Shown here: positions 1-9,056 of the stretch, piece by piece | Layout: each line of letters starts with the position of its first letter | How positions within the stretch are numbered: position 1 is the stretch's first letter | Source of the DNA: a virus | IMG/VR virus record: IMGVR_UViG_3300048433_000171 | Location: 1-24,824 of that record | Direction: 5' to 3' (one strand) | Length of the DNA stretch: 24,824 nucleotides | The notes under the pieces: model-generated | Database searches by the model: none | Told to the model about the DNA's origin: nothing | Seen by the model: only the letters and a program-made list of their open reading frames with translations | Position numbers and translations under genes: made by a program

Positions 1-198
1 GGTGGTTACAAAGGCCAGGGCAAAGATTTGCCAGTGCATTCGCCCAGGCGTGATGAGTACGCCAGGCGTAAGCTGGCAAGGACAGAGGACAGCAGGCAGC
101 AATCATCATTTGTTGATGCTGATTTCGAGAGCATGACAGACGAAGAATTAGAGGGGCTGGTGCTGGATGGCAGAATTACTATCGATGACGGTTTGTAG
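1..198 (+). CDS. 3' end of an unrecognised phage protein (cut by window start)
   Basis: Reading frame 1 is open from the first base to a TAG at 196-198, giving the last 65 residues of a protein whose start lies outside the window. The visible part is strongly charged: a basic stretch (RRDEYARRKLARTEDSR) is followed by an acidic tail (SFVDADFESMTDEELEGLVLDGRITIDDGL). No domain is recognisable in this fragment. The next gene starts 5 bases after the stop with a Shine-Dalgarno overlapping the TAG, so the two look co-translated. A role in phage DNA metabolism or regulation would fit the position but is a guess. Confidence 0.6.
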   Translation, partial: GGYKGQGKDLPVHSPRRDEYARRKLARTEDSRQQSSFVDADFESMTDEELEGLVLDGRITIDDGL

Positions 199-202
199 GA
201 GC

Positions 203-505
203 ATGGCCCAGGATCACTTCGACTGGTCAATCAGGGAAGGTATGGGTCTGTTTATGATTGCTGAGGCTTGGGGCATCGAGCCATGGGCAAAGACGCAATA
301 TGGCGGCCATGGTGCGCTTACAGAGGGCTATGTAGTCGAGCAGATGGCATTACAGGTTAGGGAGATGATGCGTGGCAAAGAAGAAGGAAACCCATCACAA
401 AGATCACAGGGTGGAACCGTGTGTGTCTTGCGGCCAAAGCCACGCGATAGCGGCTGGGACATGGGTGATATTGGCCAGCGGAGTGCTGGTGTGTGCAAAC
501 GATAG
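203..505 (+). CDS. small hypothetical phage protein
   Basis: An ATG at 203 follows AGGAG at 197-201 with a very short spacing; in-frame starts at 167 and 242 are alternatives. The product from 203 is about 100 residues. The first 60 or so look like a normal soluble protein (DWSIREGMGLFMIAEAWGIE, then EGYVVEQMALQVREMMRGKE). After that the composition becomes rich in Q, R, G and S, as expected where a different frame is the one under selection. That change coincides with the start of the overlapping Zn-ribbon frame at 372. Either the gene truly overlaps its neighbour by 134 bases, or a frameshift or assembly error near 370 has moved the real stop. Function is not recognised. Confidence 0.45.
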   Translation: MAQDHFDWSIREGMGLFMIAEAWGIEPWAKTQYGGHGALTEGYVVEQMALQVREMMRGKEEGNPSQRSQGGTVCVLRPKPRDSGWDMGDIGQRSAGVCKR

Positions 506-749
506 GTGTTGGAGAGAGCATGTCGAAAAAATACAGATCAAATCCACCGAGGTTGGCCAAGAGGGCCATGAAGACATACGAGGACAGGGCAGTAAGCCTG
601 GGGGACTTCCGCCCGATGTTCGAGGAAATAGCGTACCGTTGGAGCATAGTGCTGGGCAGGCCGATAACGCCAGCGCAAGCAGCACGGTGCATGGCAGAGA
701 TGAAGATGGCCCGATGGAACGCTGGATACAGAGAAGATCACGCAATTGA
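372..749 (+). CDS. putative Zn-ribbon small protein, GTG start, long overlap
   Basis: A GTG at 372 has a good Shine-Dalgarno (AGGGAG, 359-364) seven bases upstream. The first 50 residues carry two metal-binding-like pairs, CVSC at 17-20 and CANDRC at 41-46, spaced as in a small zinc ribbon. Beyond residue 55 the sequence is low-complexity and polar, and it overlaps the well-supported DUF6378-like gene (from 520) by 230 bases in another frame. The zinc-ribbon half therefore looks real while the C-terminal half may be chance open frame. The true product may be shorter if a frameshift occurs near 510-520. Likely role: nucleic-acid or protein binding, inferred only from the cysteines. Confidence 0.45.
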   Translation: MAKKKETHHKDHRVEPCVSCGQSHAIAAGTWVILASGVLVCANDRCWREHVEKIQIKSTEVGQEGHEDIRGQGSKPGGLPPDVRGNSVPLEHSAGQADNASASSTVHGRDEDGPMERWIQRRSRN

Positions 750-801
750 TGCGGCAAACTATGCGTTTATCGCAGCAGCAATGGATGTGGAAAAAGATTA
801 A
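520..801 (+). CDS. DUF6378-like phage protein
   Basis: ATG at 520 with GGAG at 511-514 is preferred over the in-frame ATG at 493. The 93-residue product has the pattern I associate with DUF6378 proteins of phages: an N-terminal Y-x-D-x-x-x-x-L-G-D-F stretch, then WSIVLGRPITPAQAARCMAE, then KMARWNAGYREDHAIDAANY. The helical arrangement with the histidine/aspartate (DHAID) motif resembles nucleotide-processing all-alpha folds, but no activity is established. The stop (799-801) directly abuts the ATG of the next gene, so the genes belong to one rightward operon. Confidence 0.7.
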   Translation: MSKKYRSNPPRLAKRAMKTYEDRAVSLGDFRPMFEEIAYRWSIVLGRPITPAQAARCMAEMKMARWNAGYREDHAIDAANYAFIAAAMDVEKD

Positions 802-1158
802 ATGAGTTTTGAGGAAAAGATCCGCTGCGGTGTCTTAGACATATCAGACATTTCTAAGCTATCTAAGATAGATCATAACCTACCTATATCTATTACTAAT
901 ACTAGTCAAGTCTTAGATAGGTCGGCTGAGATTAAATCTTTGCTGGGTGATGTGGTCAAACACAGCAACCAAAATTATGCCACTGCAGTGACCAAGGCGA
1001 AGACTGACCGGCTTGCCTGGCGCAAAGACAAGGTGCTTAGGGCCATGAGGCCGCGCATGTCTGCAGACCGATACACTGATATTTGCAAAGCATTGGCCAA
1101 GCTTGATGGCACGGATCTCAATGAAGTTGTTACGCGATTGGAGATGAGATGGGCATAA
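802..1158 (+). CDS. hypothetical phage protein (118 aa)
   Basis: Starts at an ATG directly after the previous stop, with only a weak purine-rich leader (GGAAAAAGA), so translational coupling is likely. The product has a short N-terminal part (MSFEEKIRCGVLDISDISKL), an S/T/N-rich linker over about residues 20-45 encoded by unusually AT-rich DNA, and a basic helical C-terminal half (KAKTDRLAWRKDKVLRAMRP). The basic half could bind nucleic acid, but no family is recognised. The end overlaps the next gene by 10 bases. Confidence 0.55.
   Translation: MSFEEKIRCGVLDISDISKLSKIDHNLPISITNTSQVLDRSAEIKSLLGDVVKHSNQNYATAVTKAKTDRLAWRKDKVLRAMRPRMSADRYTDICKALAKLDGTDLNEVVTRLEMRWA
859..920. repeat. 10-bp perfect inverted repeat in AT-rich coding segment
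   Basis: CTATCTAAGA at 859-868 is the exact reverse complement of TCTTAGATAG at 911-920, separated by 42 bases. GTCTTAGA also occurs at 832-839. The block 841-900 is about 27 percent GC by count, much lower than its surroundings. The repeat lies inside the 802-1158 gene, so it may be a coding constraint, an operator pair or a long-range RNA stem; nothing decides between these. Confidence 0.45.
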
Positions 1159-1538
1159 AGGACATCGATGACCTACATGTGTCGCTGATTGAAGCCGCAG
1201 AGACGGAGCGTAGGCTGCCACCTGCTAGGCGTAAGCAGAAGATGGCATGCTGGCCTGACTATCCGCTGGATTGGCATGGTTACGGCTGGACGCAGGCAGG
1301 CGAGGTGATGCTAAGGCCAACAGCAGATCAGATCGATTCGCTGGATTACTTGGTTAGCCTGGTTGTTGCCATGGATGAGGAAGATCGGCGGATCATATGG
1401 GCAGCAGCTCACTCGGCTGCATTCCGGCACAGAGGGCCACAGTGGACTAAAATAACAAAAATCCTGGGGCTGAATGACCCCAGGATGGTGAAGCGACAGT
1501 ACAAGGATGCGCTGATAAAGCTGTGGTACAGGCTATGA
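1149..1538 (+). CDS. DUF6362-like phage protein, probable helix-turn-helix
   Basis: ATG at 1149 with GGAG at 1140-1143 five bases upstream; it overlaps the preceding gene by 10 bases. The 129-residue product matches what I know of DUF6362 proteins: an N-terminal RLPPARRK...CWPDYPLDW segment, a middle W-x-x-x-G-x-V-x-x-RPTADQIDSLD segment, and a C-terminal W-TKITKILGL...MVKRQYKDAL-IKLW segment resembling a sigma-70 region 4 type helix-turn-helix. A DNA-binding role in middle or late gene control is plausible but not demonstrated. Its last bases overlap the convergent leftward gene by 6 bases, and a terminator for the opposite strand lies inside it at 1451-1486. Confidence 0.65.
   Translation: MGIKDIDDLHVSLIEAAETERRLPPARRKQKMACWPDYPLDWHGYGWTQAGEVMLRPTADQIDSLDYLVSLVVAMDEEDRRIIWAAAHSAAFRHRGPQWTKITKILGLNDPRMVKRQYKDALIKLWYRL
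1451..1486 (-). terminator. intrinsic terminator of the leftward operon, inside the opposing gene
   Basis: On the minus strand, a perfect 9-bp stem (ATCCTGGGG at 1486-1478 with CCCCAGGAT at 1469-1461) with an 8-base loop is followed at once by TTTTTGTTATT. On the plus strand the hairpin has only an A-rich stretch before it and no T-run after it, so it is directional. It sits 50-80 bases past the last leftward stop codon and lies within codons of the DUF6362-like gene. Confidence 0.75.
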
Positions 1539-1799
1539 TCTACGAAACCCTGCATCAAAAGCATCATTGCCAAATTCTTGAGCGCAACGATTAGTGCAGA
1601 AATAACCGCAATACATCTCATAGCTTTCGCCATCCCACAGCGTGAGGATGTCTTGATCCCAAGTGGCTCGCTTGTTGATTACTTGCATATTCCCAACATA
1701 CGGCCCCTCATTTCTTTTCCAATGGCTTGTCGTGTGCTTCTTAGCGAGCTTGCCGCAGTTTGGACAGCTTACCTGCTCTTTGAATATTCTTCTGGGCAT
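1533..1799 (-). CDS. small Zn-finger-like phage protein
   Basis: Starts at the minus-strand ATG at 1799-1797, with AGGAGA seven bases upstream. The product is 88 residues with CPNC at 12-15 and a C-terminal YCGYFCTNRCAQEF block (C64, C68, C72), a layout like treble-clef/FCS-type zinc fingers, followed by a basic tail (AGFRRS). The middle contains KRNEGPYVGN and two tryptophans. It is the last gene of the leftward operon: its ATG shares one base with the stop of the membrane peptide (TAATG), implying coupling. It ends 6 bases inside the convergent gene. Zinc binding is inferred from the cysteines; partner and role are unknown. Confidence 0.7.
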   Translation of the reverse strand: MPRRIFKEQVSCPNCGKLAKKHTTSHWKRNEGPYVGNMQVINKRATWDQDILTLWDGESYEMYCGYFCTNRCAQEFGNDAFDAGFRRS

Positions 1800-1903
1800 T
1801 ACAAATCTCCTGTCACAGCAAATAGAAGGATCGTTGCCAGGTACAAAGAAGCGAACCAGGCAACGGTCATGATGAATTCAAAGGCCAGTCTAAGCATTGC
1901 CAT
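1799..1903 (-). CDS. 34-aa single-pass membrane peptide (holin-like size)
   Basis: A short minus-strand frame runs from ATG at 1903-1901 to TAA at 1801-1799. It follows AGGA with a 4-base spacing; internal ATGs at 1897 and 1870 are alternatives. The peptide begins MAMLRLAFEF, continues through a long hydrophobic run (IMTVAWFASLYLATILLFAV) and ends TGDL, so nearly all of it would span a membrane once. It starts 14 bases inside the upstream gene and its stop overlaps the ATG of the Zn-finger gene. This fills the otherwise unexplained gap exactly, which supports a real gene. Possible roles: holin/antiholin, membrane-stress or exclusion peptide; the sequence does not say which. Confidence 0.55.
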   Translation of the reverse strand: MAMLRLAFEFIMTVAWFASLYLATILLFAVTGDL

Positions 1904-2084
1904 CACATCCTGGGTACGCGAAGCAGCCCTGATCAGCCAGGTGGATCAGCATGTACCTGGCGTATGCTGTGAGGAATTCATGGCCATCCCAGGTGAATTG
2001 ATCCAGGTTTCTCTCGACAGCCATGTCGTAGCTTACTTTGAATGACCAAGCTTTCTCTGGTGTGAATGAAATCATATCGCTCAT
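1890..2084 (-). CDS. small conserved-type phage protein (64 aa), first gene of leftward operon
   Basis: Minus-strand ATG at 2084-2082 with AGGAGA about six bases upstream. The 64-residue product contains FTWDGHEFLTAYARYMLIHL, a pattern I have seen in short phage early proteins of unknown function (aromatic-x-W-x-G-x-x-F followed by Y-A-x-Y-hydrophobic helix). The C-terminus is short and cysteine-containing (QGCFAYPGCDGNA). It lies directly downstream of a good leftward promoter at 2114-2142 and is followed by two overlapping small genes. Confidence 0.65.
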   Translation of the reverse strand: MSDMISFTPEKAWSFKVSYDMAVERNLDQFTWDGHEFLTAYARYMLIHLADQGCFAYPGCDGNA

Positions 2085-2113
2085 GTTTATCTCCTATGTT
2101 TACTTACCTACTA

Positions 2114-2142
2114 AATATGGGCATATAGACAGATACTGTCAA
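2114..2142 (-). promoter_or_regulatory. leftward sigma70-like promoter
   Basis: On the minus strand, TTGACA (2142-2137, perfect consensus) and CATATT (2119-2114, four of six matches) are separated by 17 bases. Transcription would begin around 2105 and run into the 64-aa gene. An operator-like palindrome overlaps the spacer and the -35 element. Confidence 0.65.
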
Positions 2143-2163
2143 TAGTATAGACCGATATAGTCA
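2125..2163. promoter_or_regulatory. two operator-like palindromes 22 bp apart
   Basis: Site 1 (2128-2140) is a perfect dyad, GACAGATACTGTC. Site 2 (2150-2162), GACCGATATAGTC, matches it at 10 of 13 positions and keeps the GAC/GTC ends. Centres are 22 bp apart, about two helical turns, so a dimeric repressor or activator could bind both from one face. The sites lie over and just upstream of the leftward promoter and only 7 bases from the -35 of the rightward one. No obvious repressor gene is in the window. Confidence 0.5.
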
Positions 2164-2169
2164 AGTATG

Positions 2170-2197
2170 TTGCGAATGCCTCTAAATCTGGTATTAT
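2170..2197 (+). promoter_or_regulatory. rightward extended -10 promoter upstream of terminase
   Basis: TTGCGA (2170-2175) is followed after 16 bases by TATTAT (2192-2197), preceded by TG one base away (TGGTATTAT), an extended -10. It would drive the terminase and structural genes from about 2204, with a leader of about 95 bases that includes a tetraloop hairpin. Confidence 0.5.
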
Positions 2198-2198
2198 T

Positions 2199-2220
2199 CA
2201 TGTATCGTAGGCACTACATG
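2199..2220. repeat. short inverted repeat in the divergent control region
   Basis: CATGTA (2199-2204) and TACATG (2215-2220) are complementary across a 10-base gap, right at the expected rightward transcription start. It may be another protein-binding site or a 5' stem of the transcript; a six-base match could also be chance. Confidence 0.3.
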
Positions 2221-2256
2221 TTGTTCACGATGTTCCTCCCTAGTAACTTACGCATG

Positions 2257-2282
2257 GCTTGTCTGGTTTCGACCAGGCAGGC
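2257..2282 (+). promoter_or_regulatory. 11-bp stem with UUCG loop in the terminase leader
   Basis: Bases 2257-2267 pair with 2272-2282 (nine Watson-Crick and two G-U pairs) around the tetraloop TTCG at 2268-2271. It sits 18 bases before the terminase small-subunit ATG and is not followed by a T-run, so it does not look like an intrinsic terminator. A transcript-stabilising 5' hairpin, an RNase III site or a translational control element are all possible. Confidence 0.6.
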
Positions 2283-2300
2283 TGCGTCTTTGAGGATTGA

Positions 2301-2711
2301 ATGGCTCGGAAACTAACTAAGAAACATATGCAGGACATTGCCGACCGGCTCGGTGCAGGTGAGAGCCTGACCAGGATCTGCGCTGAGGATGGCATGCCGT
2401 CTTACCGCAGTGTCACCAGGGCAGTGCTGCAGGACGATGAGTTGTACGAGATCTATCGTAAAGGCAGACTGCTGCAGGCTGAGTATTACAGCGATCACAT
2501 CAATGACCTGGCTCGGCAGCCACTGCCTGAGACTGTTGACCCGAAGGTGCTGAATGCTGAGGTGCAGCGCAGAAGGCTTGAGGTAGACACGCTCAAGTTT
2601 ACCATGGGCAAGCTGCAGCCCTGGGGCTTGCGTGACAAGAAGGAAGATGCACCGGCAAGCAGCAGCATCACGCTGACATGGCTCAATGGTGAGGTCACGA
2701 CAGAGGGGTGA
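2301..2711 (+). CDS. terS: terminase small subunit
   Basis: ATG at 2301 with GAGGA (2292-2296) four bases upstream. The 136-residue product has the layout of Sf6-type small terminases. An N-terminal helix-turn-helix region (KKHMQDIADRLGAGESLTRI then GMPSYRSVTRAVLQDDEL) should recognise the packaging site. It is followed by a helical oligomerisation core (QAEYYSDHINDLA, then EVQRRRLEVDTLKFTMGKL) and a tail (KLQPWGLRDKKE...ITLTWLNGE) typical of the family. Its position 266 bases before the large subunit supports the call. The protein would form a ring on phage DNA and hand it to the large subunit. Confidence 0.85.
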   Translation: MARKLTKKHMQDIADRLGAGESLTRICAEDGMPSYRSVTRAVLQDDELYEIYRKGRLLQAEYYSDHINDLARQPLPETVDPKVLNAEVQRRRLEVDTLKFTMGKLQPWGLRDKKEDAPASSSITLTWLNGEVTTEG

Positions 2712-2712
2712 G

Positions 2713-2784
2713 ATGCCCATATATAAACGCCCTGTCTGGCCGAGCTTCGCGCATGAGGTTGGCCGGTCAGGTACCACAGTCTGA
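2713..2784 (+). CDS. possible 23-aa peptide after terS
   Basis: An ATG two bases after the terS stop has GAGG (2703-2706) at a good distance and encodes MPIYKRPVWPSFAHEVGRSG plus three residues before TGA. It is short and unrecognised. The same stretch holds an AT-rich promoter-like motif, so coding is uncertain. Confidence 0.25.
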   Translation: MPIYKRPVWPSFAHEVGRSGTTV

Positions 2785-2944
2785 GTGTAGTGTGCTGCAT
2801 GGCTGTGATCCGCAGTGAGCTTGGCGAGATAATGCCTGGCAGCCCGAGCTGTCTCCAGCTTGTCTCCAAAAAGGATGGGGGGTAGGTAAATTTTGGCAGG
2901 GCAGGCACCCCACCCTCGCCATATCTACCGGCCCATCTATAACA

Positions 2945-2950
2945 TATAAT
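2945..2950 (+). promoter_or_regulatory. candidate -10 box before the large terminase gene
   Basis: A perfect TATAAT lies in an AT-rich block (CTATAACATATAATATACC) 27 bases before the terL ATG. The base stretch 17 positions upstream (TATCTA) is a poor -35, so it would need an activator or a phage-specific factor. Confidence 0.3.
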
Positions 2951-2977
2951 ATACCCTGGTCTTGGAGCCTCACATTC

Positions 2978-4267
2978 ATGCAGATTGTCATCCCCTATGC
3001 ACCTCGGCCTCTTCAGGCAAAGCTGCATGACGATCTGTCTGCGAAGCGCTGGGGCGTTGTCGTATGTCATAGACGCTTTGGCAAGACTGTGATGAGTGTC
3101 AATCACATCCTGCGTGATGCGATCATGAACACAAAGACCAATCCGAGGTATGCTTACATGGCCCCGACCTACCGGCAGGCCAAGTCTGTTGCCTGGGATT
3201 ATTTGAAGGAATTTGCTGGCAGCATACCTGATACGCGCTTTCATGAGACTGAGCTGCGTTGTGACCTGCCTAATGGTGCCAGGATAAGCCTGTTAGGGGC
3301 TGAAAACCCTGACAGCCTACGCGGTATTTATTTAGATGGTTGCGTCATGGATGAGGTCGCAGACATGCCTGAAAGCGTGTTTCCTGAGATCCTTAGACCG
3401 GCGCTGTCTGATCGCCAGGGCTGGTGTGTGTTCGTAGGCACACCGCGTGGCACCAACATGTTTTATGACTACTACGAGCAGGCTGTGGCCAACGATGACT
3501 GGGTTGCCACGGTGTACAAGGCGTCTGAGACAGGCATCTTACCTGCAGAGGAATTGGATGCTGCCAGGTCGATGATGACGCCTGACCAGTATGAGCAGGA
3601 GTTTGAGTGTTCTTGGGTAGCCAATGTGCCTGGTTCGATTTATGGCAAAGAGATGCAGGCGGCGCTCGATGATGGAAGGATTACGAATGTTCCGTATGAT
3701 CCGGCAGCTAAAGTTCACACTTTCTGGGATTTGGGCATTGGCGATAGCACGGCTATCTGGTTTGCACAAACAGGCGGCTCGGCTGGTCGAGGTGTACACA
3801 TTATCGATTATTATGAGGCGCGTGGCGAAGGCTTGCCGCACTACTGTTCAGTCTTGTCGCGTAAAAATTATTTGTATGGGGATCACTATGCGCCTCACGA
3901 CATTGAAGTGCGCGAACTGGGTTCGGGCAAAAGCCGTAGAGAAGTGGCGTGGGATCTTGGGCTAAACTTTCGGGTGCTGCCTAAACTGCCGCTGGAAGAT
4001 GGGATACATGCTGCACAGATGCTTATTCCTCGATGCTACTTTGACCGAGAGAAGTGCAAGGCAGGGATCGAGGCCCTTCGGCAGTACCATAGGGCGTATA
4101 ATGAAAAGGCTCGCACATACCGGCTGTCGCCTGTTCATGATTGGTCTAGTCATGGCAGCGATGCGTTTCGGTACATGTCGATTGGGATACGAGAGGGTCA
4201 TGCTGACCGTAGGCCGCAACAGCGCCAGGCGGTAACAAGCTATGATCCGTTTGCTGTGGCAAGTTAG
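2978..4267 (+). CDS. terL: terminase large subunit (packaging ATPase/nuclease)
   Basis: The 429-residue product is the DNA-packaging motor. The N-terminal ATPase has a terminase-type Walker A (HRRFGKT, residues 31-37), an adenine-binding-like stretch (YMAPTYRQAKS), Walker B with catalytic glutamate (IYLDGCVMDE, E126) and the coupling motif VGTPRG (153-158). The C-terminal RNase H-like nuclease shows acidic residues at FWDLGIGDS (D251), HYAPHDIE (D308) and HGSDAFRYM (D395). ATG 2978 follows GGAG (2964-2967) at a rather long 10-base spacing. Length is near the lower end for large terminases but both domains appear complete. It docks on the portal encoded at 5387. Confidence 0.93.
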   Translation: MQIVIPYAPRPLQAKLHDDLSAKRWGVVVCHRRFGKTVMSVNHILRDAIMNTKTNPRYAYMAPTYRQAKSVAWDYLKEFAGSIPDTRFHETELRCDLPNGARISLLGAENPDSLRGIYLDGCVMDEVADMPESVFPEILRPALSDRQGWCVFVGTPRGTNMFYDYYEQAVANDDWVATVYKASETGILPAEELDAARSMMTPDQYEQEFECSWVANVPGSIYGKEMQAALDDGRITNVPYDPAAKVHTFWDLGIGDSTAIWFAQTGGSAGRGVHIIDYYEARGEGLPHYCSVLSRKNYLYGDHYAPHDIEVRELGSGKSRREVAWDLGLNFRVLPKLPLEDGIHAAQMLIPRCYFDREKCKAGIEALRQYHRAYNEKARTYRLSPVHDWSSHGSDAFRYMSIGIREGHADRRPQQRQAVTSYDPFAVAS

Positions 4268-4276
4268 GAGTGTTTG

Positions 4277-5194
4277 ATGAATAAGAAGGTATCTGTTCCT
4301 AGGAAGGTCAATTACAAGGGCGTACCGCACCAGCTCGCTTATGTGACAAATAAAGAGATGTCACTGATGCGTAAGCATGGCGGCAGCGGTGAGCCTGGTG
4401 TGGGTGGTATTCCGACATTTATCCCTGACGATGGCAATCGTGGCGGCCATTCTGATTTTGGCGGCGATGGGCGGGATGGTTCTGGCGCACCTAGCGGCCC
4501 AAGCAAGGGCGAGTTTGGCGGCGGCGATAGTAAAGATGCTAGCAATTTCAGCTTGGGCAATTATGATTCTAAGGCTGCCTCAAAAGGCAAAGGTCAAAGC
4601 CAAGCAAATTTAGAGGCTCAAAGAGCTGCTGCAGAAGCTGCTGCAAGGGAAAGAGCAAAGGAACAGCTAAAGGTTCGTGAGAAAAAAGCCGCTAAAAAAA
4701 CTTTGCTCGATTATACGCCTGTCGGGATGTTTTCAAAATACATGGGCCAAAAGATGCGTAGTTATTTGGGCGAGCAGCTTGATGCCGAAAACTTTGTCGA
4801 TGCTATATTTGATCAAAAAGGCAAATACGTTGGTAATGTAACCAAGAACGCTCTTGGTATGAATGTTTTTACCGGCATGAAGGTACAGGGCTACACCGGT
4901 AAATATGCTGGCCTTGTTGCTCAAAACACGCCAGGCGACAGAGACGATGAAATTGAAACCCAAGTTGTTAAAGATTACTCCGGTGGCAAATTAGACCCTA
5001 ACAAAAATGATGATGGCGTGAACCAAGTTTTACCGCCAGAGCCTGAGAAAGAGCTGAAGGAAGACGCCGACCTTGAGAATGAGGCTAAAAAGAAATACGG
5101 CCAGATGGAGCAGGTCGAAACAACACCCCAGGGGTTATTGACCAAGGCGCGTACAAGAAGACGAAGCCTGCTGGCTACAGGACTACTGACATGA
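4277..5194 (+). CDS. Gly-rich and coiled-coil phage protein of unknown function
   Basis: ATG 4277 is chosen over the TTG at 4274 because AGGAG (4266-4270) is then six bases away. The 305-residue product begins with a basic segment containing NKEMSLMRKHGGSGEP. A Gly/Ser/Asp-rich low-complexity region follows (about 36-105), then an Ala/Glu/Lys/Arg coiled coil (about 105-142), a folded-looking part (LLDYTPVGMFSKYMGQKM onward) and a polar acidic stretch. It ends in TTPQGLLTKARTRRRSLL, a C-terminal pattern seen in proteins next to the portal of similar phages. The position suggests a virion or packaging-associated protein. The gene ends with an ATGA overlap with the next one. Confidence 0.6.
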   Translation: MNKKVSVPRKVNYKGVPHQLAYVTNKEMSLMRKHGGSGEPGVGGIPTFIPDDGNRGGHSDFGGDGRDGSGAPSGPSKGEFGGGDSKDASNFSLGNYDSKAASKGKGQSQANLEAQRAAAEAAARERAKEQLKVREKKAAKKTLLDYTPVGMFSKYMGQKMRSYLGEQLDAENFVDAIFDQKGKYVGNVTKNALGMNVFTGMKVQGYTGKYAGLVAQNTPGDRDDEIETQVVKDYSGGKLDPNKNDDGVNQVLPPEPEKELKEDADLENEAKKKYGQMEQVETTPQGLLTKARTRRRSLLATGLLT

Positions 5195-8195: not shown

Positions 8196-9056
8196 ATGTC
8201 TTCACAAATCACCACCGCATTCGTGAATCAATTTTCATCGAATGTGACAATGCTCTCGCAGCAAATGGGTTCATTGCTGCGGAGTTCTGTTGATGTTGAA
8301 ACCATCAATGGCGAAAAGGCGTTTTTTGACCAAGTTGGTCAGGCAGCGGCTGTTCAAAGAACTACAAGAAATGGCGATACACCGCTCATGGAAACACCCC
8401 ATGCACGGCGTCAAGTCACCTTGAAGGATTTTGAATACGCTGATCTGATTGATGATCAGGATAAAATCCGCATGTTGATTGATCCAACATCAACCTATGC
8501 TCGGGCTGCGGCTGCTGCCATTGGCCGTGCTATGGACGATGAGATCATTTCAGCTTTGATCGGTTCAGCCAACACTGGCAAGACTGGTTCAACATCTGTG
8601 GCTTTGCCAGCAGCGCAAAAAATCGCTCATGGCTCTGCAGGTTTGACCATTGCTAAGTTGGTTGAAGCAAAGCAAAAGTTGGACGAAAAGTCTGTTGATC
8701 CATCTATTCGCCGGTACATTGCTGTGTCGCCAAAACAGATCTCAGATCTGTTAAACAACACAACAGTCACCAGCGCAGACTTCAACACAGTCCGTGCTTT
8801 ATCGACTGGCTCGATCAACGAGTTTGTCGGCTTCACCTTCATCGTAACTAATCGTCTGAGTACCGATTCCAATAGCGACCGCCAGGTTATTGCCTGGGCG
8901 CAAGATGGTTGCAAATTGGCTATGGGTAAAGAGCCGACTAGCCGCATTGAAGAACGTGCTGACAAGTCTTACGCAACCCAGGTCTACTACTGCTCGTCTT
9001 TCTCTGCGACACGCATGGAAGAAGAAAAAGTAGTTGAGATCGCTTGTTCAGAGTAA
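8196..9056 (+). CDS. major capsid protein
   Basis: ATG 8196 is six bases after AAGGAG; the GTG at 8193 is too close. The 286-residue product is a phage capsid protein of the podovirus type found after the scaffold. Its N-terminus is ITTAFVNQFSSNVTMLSQQM. Next come the T7-capsid-like VETINGEKAFFDQVG, the RRQVTLKDFEYADLIDDQDK segment, a helix with AAAAIGRAMDDEIISAL, and a C-terminal part with FTFIVTNRLS and YYCSSFSATRMEEEKVVEI. An HK97-like fold is expected for the family. The strongest ribosome site in the window and the terminator after the next gene fit a highly expressed gene. Confidence 0.9.
   Translation: MSSQITTAFVNQFSSNVTMLSQQMGSLLRSSVDVETINGEKAFFDQVGQAAAVQRTTRNGDTPLMETPHARRQVTLKDFEYADLIDDQDKIRMLIDPTSTYARAAAAAIGRAMDDEIISALIGSANTGKTGSTSVALPAAQKIAHGSAGLTIAKLVEAKQKLDEKSVDPSIRRYIAVSPKQISDLLNNTTVTSADFNTVRALSTGSINEFVGFTFIVTNRLSTDSNSDRQVIAWAQDGCKLAMGKEPTSRIEERADKSYATQVYYCSSFSATRMEEEKVVEIACSE

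Follow-up and report, generated by a model that had tools for sequence, protein, structure and literature searches.

A small-gene cassette beside the terminase genes of a marine HTVC010P-type podovirus is probably an exchangeable operon under CI-like repressor control

The DNA analyzed here (the window) is a 24,824-base IMG/VR virus record, IMGVR_UViG_3300048433_000171, a fragment of an HTVC010P-type marine podovirus genome that carries three small leftward genes just upstream of its terminase genes. Our main reading, to which we assign a probability of roughly 70%, is that these genes form an exchangeable accessory operon of a temperate phage, and that this operon would be controlled by the CI-like repressor of the phage. 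Judging from the sequence, the cassette promoter carries the operator common to a CI/Cro-type switch. An earlier note on this DNA had described three overlapping minus-strand genes equipped with a promoter of their own, a pair of operator-like sites and an intrinsic terminator, and all of these elements are present.

The window has a large terminase (TerL) homologous to that of the HTVC010P-type phages, and its terminase, connector, capsid and tail tube genes follow one another as they do in that group. Its TerL shows 52-57% identity to those of the HTVC010P-type pelagiphages HTVC010P, HTVC034P, Lederberg and Skadi. Regarding base composition, the window has a GC content of 49%, and environmental genomes with HTVC010P structural genes form a large group with GC contents from 31 to 57% (PMC5332604). 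Contig L001, with 99.8% identity to positions 3-3379 of the window, extends 4.5 kb further left, and this extension contains leftward genes that include a CI-like repressor and a recombination operon. The window record ends short of the repressor gene and contains no integrase. Hence, the earlier statement that every other gene runs rightward is correct within the window but not for the phage, and reflects a property of the fragment. Positions 1-198 of the window are part of a gene that is complete in L001 (reverse complement of 4283-4663); its product starts MKCPKCKGATSVKDSRD and, judged by eye, looks like an NrdR-type zinc ribbon. A profile scan of genomes with the terminase profile matched only contigs in metagenome-assembled genomes (MAGs) and one single-cell genome. 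One contig binned in a Euryarchaeota MAG, L089, is a relative of the phage group (TerL 66%) and is probably misbinned; it encodes a clear Mom protein at 3634-4293 (PF25680, E 1.6e-38) along with a Cro-like protein, and an operator site is located at 8211.

The cassette lies in a slot with conserved borders, namely a DUF6362 gene on the left (1149-1538, plus strand; PF19889, E 7.6e-12) and the gene of an Sf6-like small terminase subunit (TerS) on the right (2301-2711, plus strand; PF20901, E 9.6e-19). Beyond the right border, positions 2712-2977 form a 266-bp stretch without a convincing gene between the small and large terminase genes, which might contain a packaging site; in some relatives, the distance between the two genes reaches several hundred bases. 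The leftward promoter, PL, occupies positions 2114-2142 of the minus strand, with a -35 box TTGACA (2142-2137), a 17-bp spacer and a -10 box CATATT (2119-2114). The left arm of the operator palindrome O1 (2126-2142, minus strand TTGACAGTATCTGTCTA) is the -35 box itself. O1 spans from -35 to about -19 of PL, so a protein bound there would be expected to block RNA polymerase. It is the only site in the window with at most one mismatch to TTGACAN5TGTCAA (0.06 expected), and the chance of finding such a palindrome in a 220-bp intergenic region is about 0.00075. The -35 box TTGACA is invariant across all relatives examined, and the palindrome TTGACA-N5-TGTCAA with this box as one arm was present in 23 out of 23 cassettes checked (22 aligned, plus that of L028). 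The earlier proposal of a compact, separately controlled cassette is supported, and it gains in detail from the operator that the cassette has in common with a CI/Cro-type switch. The 22 aligned intergenic regions read TTGACA, five bases and then TGTC(A)(A), 54-86 bp upstream of the first gene. We discarded the possibility that the palindrome arises merely by chance from the -35 box, given the conservation of its other arm and the presence of further copies at CI/cro. A weaker operator-like site, O2 (2148-2164, minus strand TTGACTATATCGGTCTA), has its center 22 bp from that of O1 and is restricted to the close clade of the window (also L009, L010 and L011). Besides, we propose a divergent rightward promoter of the terminase genes, PR, at 2170-2197 on the plus strand (TTGCGA-16-TATTAT, with TG ahead of the -10 box); the pattern TTGnnA-N16-nATnnT and its spacing are kept in the aligned relatives.

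At the other end of the cassette, an intrinsic terminator (1461-1486, minus strand) with a 10-bp stem, a T tail and a folding energy of -18.3 kcal/mol is located inside the protein-coding part of DUF6362, a rightward gene. The stem is retained through compensatory changes in L010, L011, L026 and L028, and in these contigs the DUF6362 protein retains LGxNDPR or LGLDPR despite the base changes in the stem. The hairpin is absent downstream of the last cassette gene in the clade of L012-L023 and L053, so leftward transcription may there continue antisense through DUF6362 and further. In the window, promoter-like and terminator-like matches are no more numerous than in shuffled sequence; it is therefore their conservation alone that argues for the promoter and the terminator.

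The palindrome is also found at other promoters of the relatives. Allowing a single mismatch, we identified 17 sites in six records, all of them intergenic in the stretches examined, compared with 0.02-0.12 sites per record for permuted palindromes. They are located in the promoter regions of CI/cro, of the recombination genes, of the integrase and of the cassette. CI-like helix-turn-helix (HTH) proteins of 210-289 aa are encoded divergently from Cro-like proteins of 70-72 aa, with palindrome sites in between; in G001 and G002, two sites lie in this intergenic region, about 40 bp apart. A further site lies just upstream of the leftward recombination operon, which encodes a 327-335-aa protein, an ERF annealing protein and an SSB-like protein, and another upstream of the integrase operon. 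In Pfam, the CI-like proteins score above the cut-off for HTH_3 or HTH_26, and they also match PHROG repressors; the 386-aa protein matches Phage_integrase (4e-17) and the 195-aa protein ERF in Pfam, with PHROGs in agreement. L001 encodes a 210-aa CI-like protein and a Cro-like protein and has three palindrome sites, with no integrase on the contig. The divergent arrangement of an HTH repressor and a cro-like gene with operators between them was observed in L001, L082, L083, L085 and L086. In the cousins L160 and L163, a variant operator (TTGACGN5CGTCAA) precedes an integrase operon that carries a relative of the first cassette gene, so the operator sequence varies while its position over the -35 box stays. 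Four records (G004, G005, G008 and G009), some of which are fragments, gave no palindrome site and no integrase, Cro-like or HTH_26 match.

The repressor differs in each relative, and Cro-like or host proteins could also bind these sites. One could argue that the regulator acting at O1 is the Cro-like protein or a host factor, and that the cassette is an immediate-early operon that is later shut down, in a divergent early/late switch with PR resembling that of phi29. The Cro-like protein is indeed more conserved between clades (52-70% identity) than the CI-like protein (about 28%), with the operator being shared, a conserved PR-like divergent promoter adjoins O1 and O2, and lytic pelagiphages retain the Cro-like protein. 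Nevertheless, those lytic pelagiphages that have a Cro-like protein but lack CI show no operator at the slot, and we regard this alternative as unlikely. It would mostly supplement control by the CI-like repressor rather than replace it, as CI and Cro usually share operators.

The three cassette genes are minus-strand open reading frames that overlap stop-to-start, each preceded by a plausible ribosome binding site (AGGAG/AGGA). The first, ORF64 (1890-2084, minus strand), encodes a 64-aa protein of a phage family in which F7, A22, F30, G34, L38, Y41, A42 and Y44 are invariant. We found this family at 30 loci in viral contigs, and the window/L010 pair gave a dN/dS of 0.38, which indicates purifying selection. 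Its AlphaFold model has an alpha-beta-beta-alpha fold (pLDDT 76); structure comparison returned only matches to this common arrangement, with Z values of 5.2 or lower, and the best tblastn hit against annotated phages had an E-value of only 0.8.

The second gene, TM34 (1799-1903, minus strand), encodes a single-pass membrane peptide of 34 aa from an ATG, or 35 aa from an upstream GTG, with a mean hydropathy of 2.09 across residues 10-28. It is the most conserved gene of the cassette, with E9, F17, S19, Y21, I25, L26, L27, A29, G32 and L34 invariant in 13 sequences and a dN/dS of 0.10 for the window/L009 pair. In the relatives, TM34 is invariably leftward and invariably within this slot. It gave no match in Pfam, PHROGs or NCBIfam, nor by tblastn against annotated phages, and the family is new to the databases searched.

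The third gene, ZnF88 (1533-1799, minus strand), encodes an 88-aa zinc-knuckle protein with the family signature CxxC ... PYxGN ... LWDGESY ... FC-x3-C. Its cysteines C12, C15, C68 and C72 are invariant in 25 sequences and form two CxnC pairs, as in zinc-ribbon and treble-clef proteins, predicted to bind zinc. The family was detected at 48 loci in many kinds of phage; in the window/L003 pair, the proteins are 88% identical with a dN/dS of 0.05. Like ORF64, TM34 and ZnF88 are thus under purifying selection. One of five AlphaFold models was good (86) and the other four scored about 50; the model matched no known fold in the PDB and a single viral relative only. By tblastn against annotated phages, we obtained only weak matches to Caulobacter phages, and the PHROG match (phrog_10186, a family without function; E 2e-5) spans only 30 residues. 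Overall, ORF64, TM34 and ZnF88 gave no confident family match in Pfam, PHROGs and NCBIfam, the two soluble proteins, ORF64 and ZnF88, had no match in PADLOC, and none of the three matches a known anti-defense family. An antisense open reading frame at 1578-2045 (plus strand) was taken as spurious, since it is not conserved in L003 or L009.

Using the small terminase subunit as bait, we gathered 56 related loci, in about 20 of which the interval between DUF6362 and TerS was complete enough to be read. Every readable slot contained a leftward run of small genes. The search for the same three-gene order in related contigs succeeded for the near-identical L001 and L002, which are the only ones with the full trio; in the other relatives the slot is kept but its genes are exchanged, and the idea of a self-contained three-gene system is not supported, as the genes are swapped independently. 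In this sense, the cassette of L003 has TM34 and ZnF88 after a different first gene, ORF64 relatives occur without TM34 in L010, L011 and L025-L028, and TM34 is found alongside other genes in L012-L023 and L053. With 12 of about 19 relatives, TM34 is the gene found most often. Among more distant relatives, L123, L128 and L129 have ZnF88 in the same slot. The cassette region of L128 (1188, 2248 and 3242-3364) also shows two operator palindromes and a 40-aa one-pass peptide; this peptide has no clear similarity to TM34 and occupies the last position, the place of TM34 in the group of the window, so a membrane peptide at the last position of the cassette may be a recurring theme.

The small overlapping genes could suggest a toxin/antidote pair or trio that acts as an obligate unit, one of the possibilities raised previously. 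Against it, each of the three is found in many phages that lack its two partners (ZnF88 and ORF64 are each also found alone in unrelated ones), and the database searches described above retrieved no PADLOC match for ORF64 and ZnF88 and no Pfam, PHROG or NCBIfam match for TM34; with its components occurring separately, such a unit seems extremely improbable. Lysis timing had been proposed as well, and a 34-aa one-pass peptide such as TM34 could be seen as a small holin, antiholin or pinholin-like protein tuned by the other genes. Yet TM34 is missing from the cassettes of L010, L011, L026, L028, L034 and L035, and the control of the cassette would be shared with recombination and integrase genes and not with late genes. 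In addition, G001 and G002 have a separate module near the integrase, with an endolysin-like 153-aa protein and a 101-aa neighbor that has a hydrophobic segment, as judged by eye. Taken together, these observations make a lysis-timing unit very unlikely.

Regarding the exchange of cargo, the first cassette gene of L013 shows 80.5% identity to the first gene of the integrase operon of G001, and in the cousins L155-L166 ORF64 is located downstream of a tyrosine integrase (confirmed as such for L155, L160 and L163). From these sequence comparisons, cargo appears to move between two repressed loci, the cassette and the integrase operon, and we infer that the operator-promoters common to both could act as recombination anchors. 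The cassette of L016 encodes a Mom-like DNA modification protein (E 7.6e-17), and ten further cargo proteins from the cassettes of relatives gave no family match. According to this one Mom-like gene, the rapid turnover of the cargo and general knowledge of phages, the cargo is probably directed against the host or its defenses. A role in host takeover or exclusion, as contemplated in the earlier note, is possible.

Integrase and repressor occur together in G001, G002 and G003, the repressor of the latter being truncated at the contig end. HTVC010P and Greip have been reported without lysogeny genes (PMC8163748). The overall layout seen in the relatives of the window recurs in Skadi-4, Lederberg and HTVC034P, and in Skadi-4 and Lederberg about nine small genes form a leftward cluster directly upstream of TerL. 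Their slot cargo is unrelated to that of the window group, and a TM34 profile search of both cassettes found no relative. In Skadi-4, the slot shows no operator, and no repressor such as CI is encoded between the nuclease and the Cro-like protein. These lytic relatives keep leftward genes in the slot without CI or operator, so control by CI is not needed for the slot. The Cro-like protein of L086 (8622-8831) has weak relatives (36-41%) in the cultured pelagiphages Skadi-4, HTVC034P and HTVC203P; that a Cro-like protein is kept in these phages, with Skadi-4 lacking CI, suggests that their ancestors were temperate. The slot thus seems to be common to the HTVC010P-type group as a whole, with repressor control as a feature of its temperate members.

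These comparisons also bear on a lysogenic-conversion (moron) operon, which would be expressed from the prophage and would protect the lysogen, for instance through superinfection exclusion by the membrane peptide. The cassette has its own promoter and terminator, runs against its neighbors, exchanges its cargo and encodes a membrane peptide, all of which is typical of morons. Still, the -35 box of PL is formed by one arm of the operator that is also found at CI/Cro and at the recombination operon, which predicts that the cassette is shut off in the lysogen, and lytic pelagiphages without a repressor also retain leftward small-gene cassettes. We consider a moron operon improbable.

In the reading that we prefer, an accessory operon under the CI-like repressor, this HTH protein or the adjacent Cro-like protein would bind the palindrome sites, and the cassette would be silent in the lysogen, as expected from the position of the operator. 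It would then be switched on together with the recombination and integrase genes at phage entry or induction, and its transcription would end at the terminator within DUF6362. The small cargo genes, with their rapid exchange, would most likely target the host or its defenses as part of the early lytic program, with the 34-aa peptide TM34 acting at the inner membrane. A more specific version is a ‘launch cassette’, that is, a repressor-gated anti-host slot with cargo exchanging between two CI-operator loci (the cassette and the integrase operon) and TM34 as a hitherto undescribed core effector that acts together with the rotating cargo at entry or prepares the ground for it; we put it forward tentatively, as a possibility with the odds against it.

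Phages of the HTVC010P type rank among the most abundant marine viruses, and our literature searches found no description of this locus. The repressor/Cro switch, the integrase and the readable operator of the relatives make lysogeny control in the HTVC010P group directly testable. Besides, promoters with TTGACA-N5-TGTCAA provide a sequence handle for finding accessory small genes that are probably anti-defense.

Compared with other HTVC010P-type pelagiphages, the relatives of the window share the succession of recombination genes, Cro-like gene, rightward small genes, leftward cluster and then terminase and virion genes, and differ in having CI, operators, an integrase and a GC content of about 49%. 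The Mom-like protein of L016 and the rapid turnover of small genes resemble phage accessory and anti-restriction loci such as Mom of phage Mu, whereas the three proteins of the window match no known anti-defense family. The c1 operators of phage P1 are a multi-operator repressor regulon, as are the stoperators of cluster A mycobacteriophages (PMC6550527). Here too, one repressor site is repeated at several places in the genome, although all sites found are at promoter regions, with none within genes or coding arrays, and the palindrome is of the N5 type and belongs to a marine podovirus. The type of regulation is thus already known, and its setting here is new. Finally, the lambda-type CI/Cro switch likewise has paired operators that separate divergent CI-like and Cro-like genes, additional operators that overlap early-operon promoters, a repressed leftward operon with recombination genes (here, an ERF-like annealing protein and an SSB-like protein) and an integrase. 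In contrast to lambda, the repressors described here match by their HTH only, the integrase operon also carries the operator, the virion genes are HTVC010P-type and not lambdoid, and the cassette is a separate transcription unit beside the terminase with its own operator-promoter.
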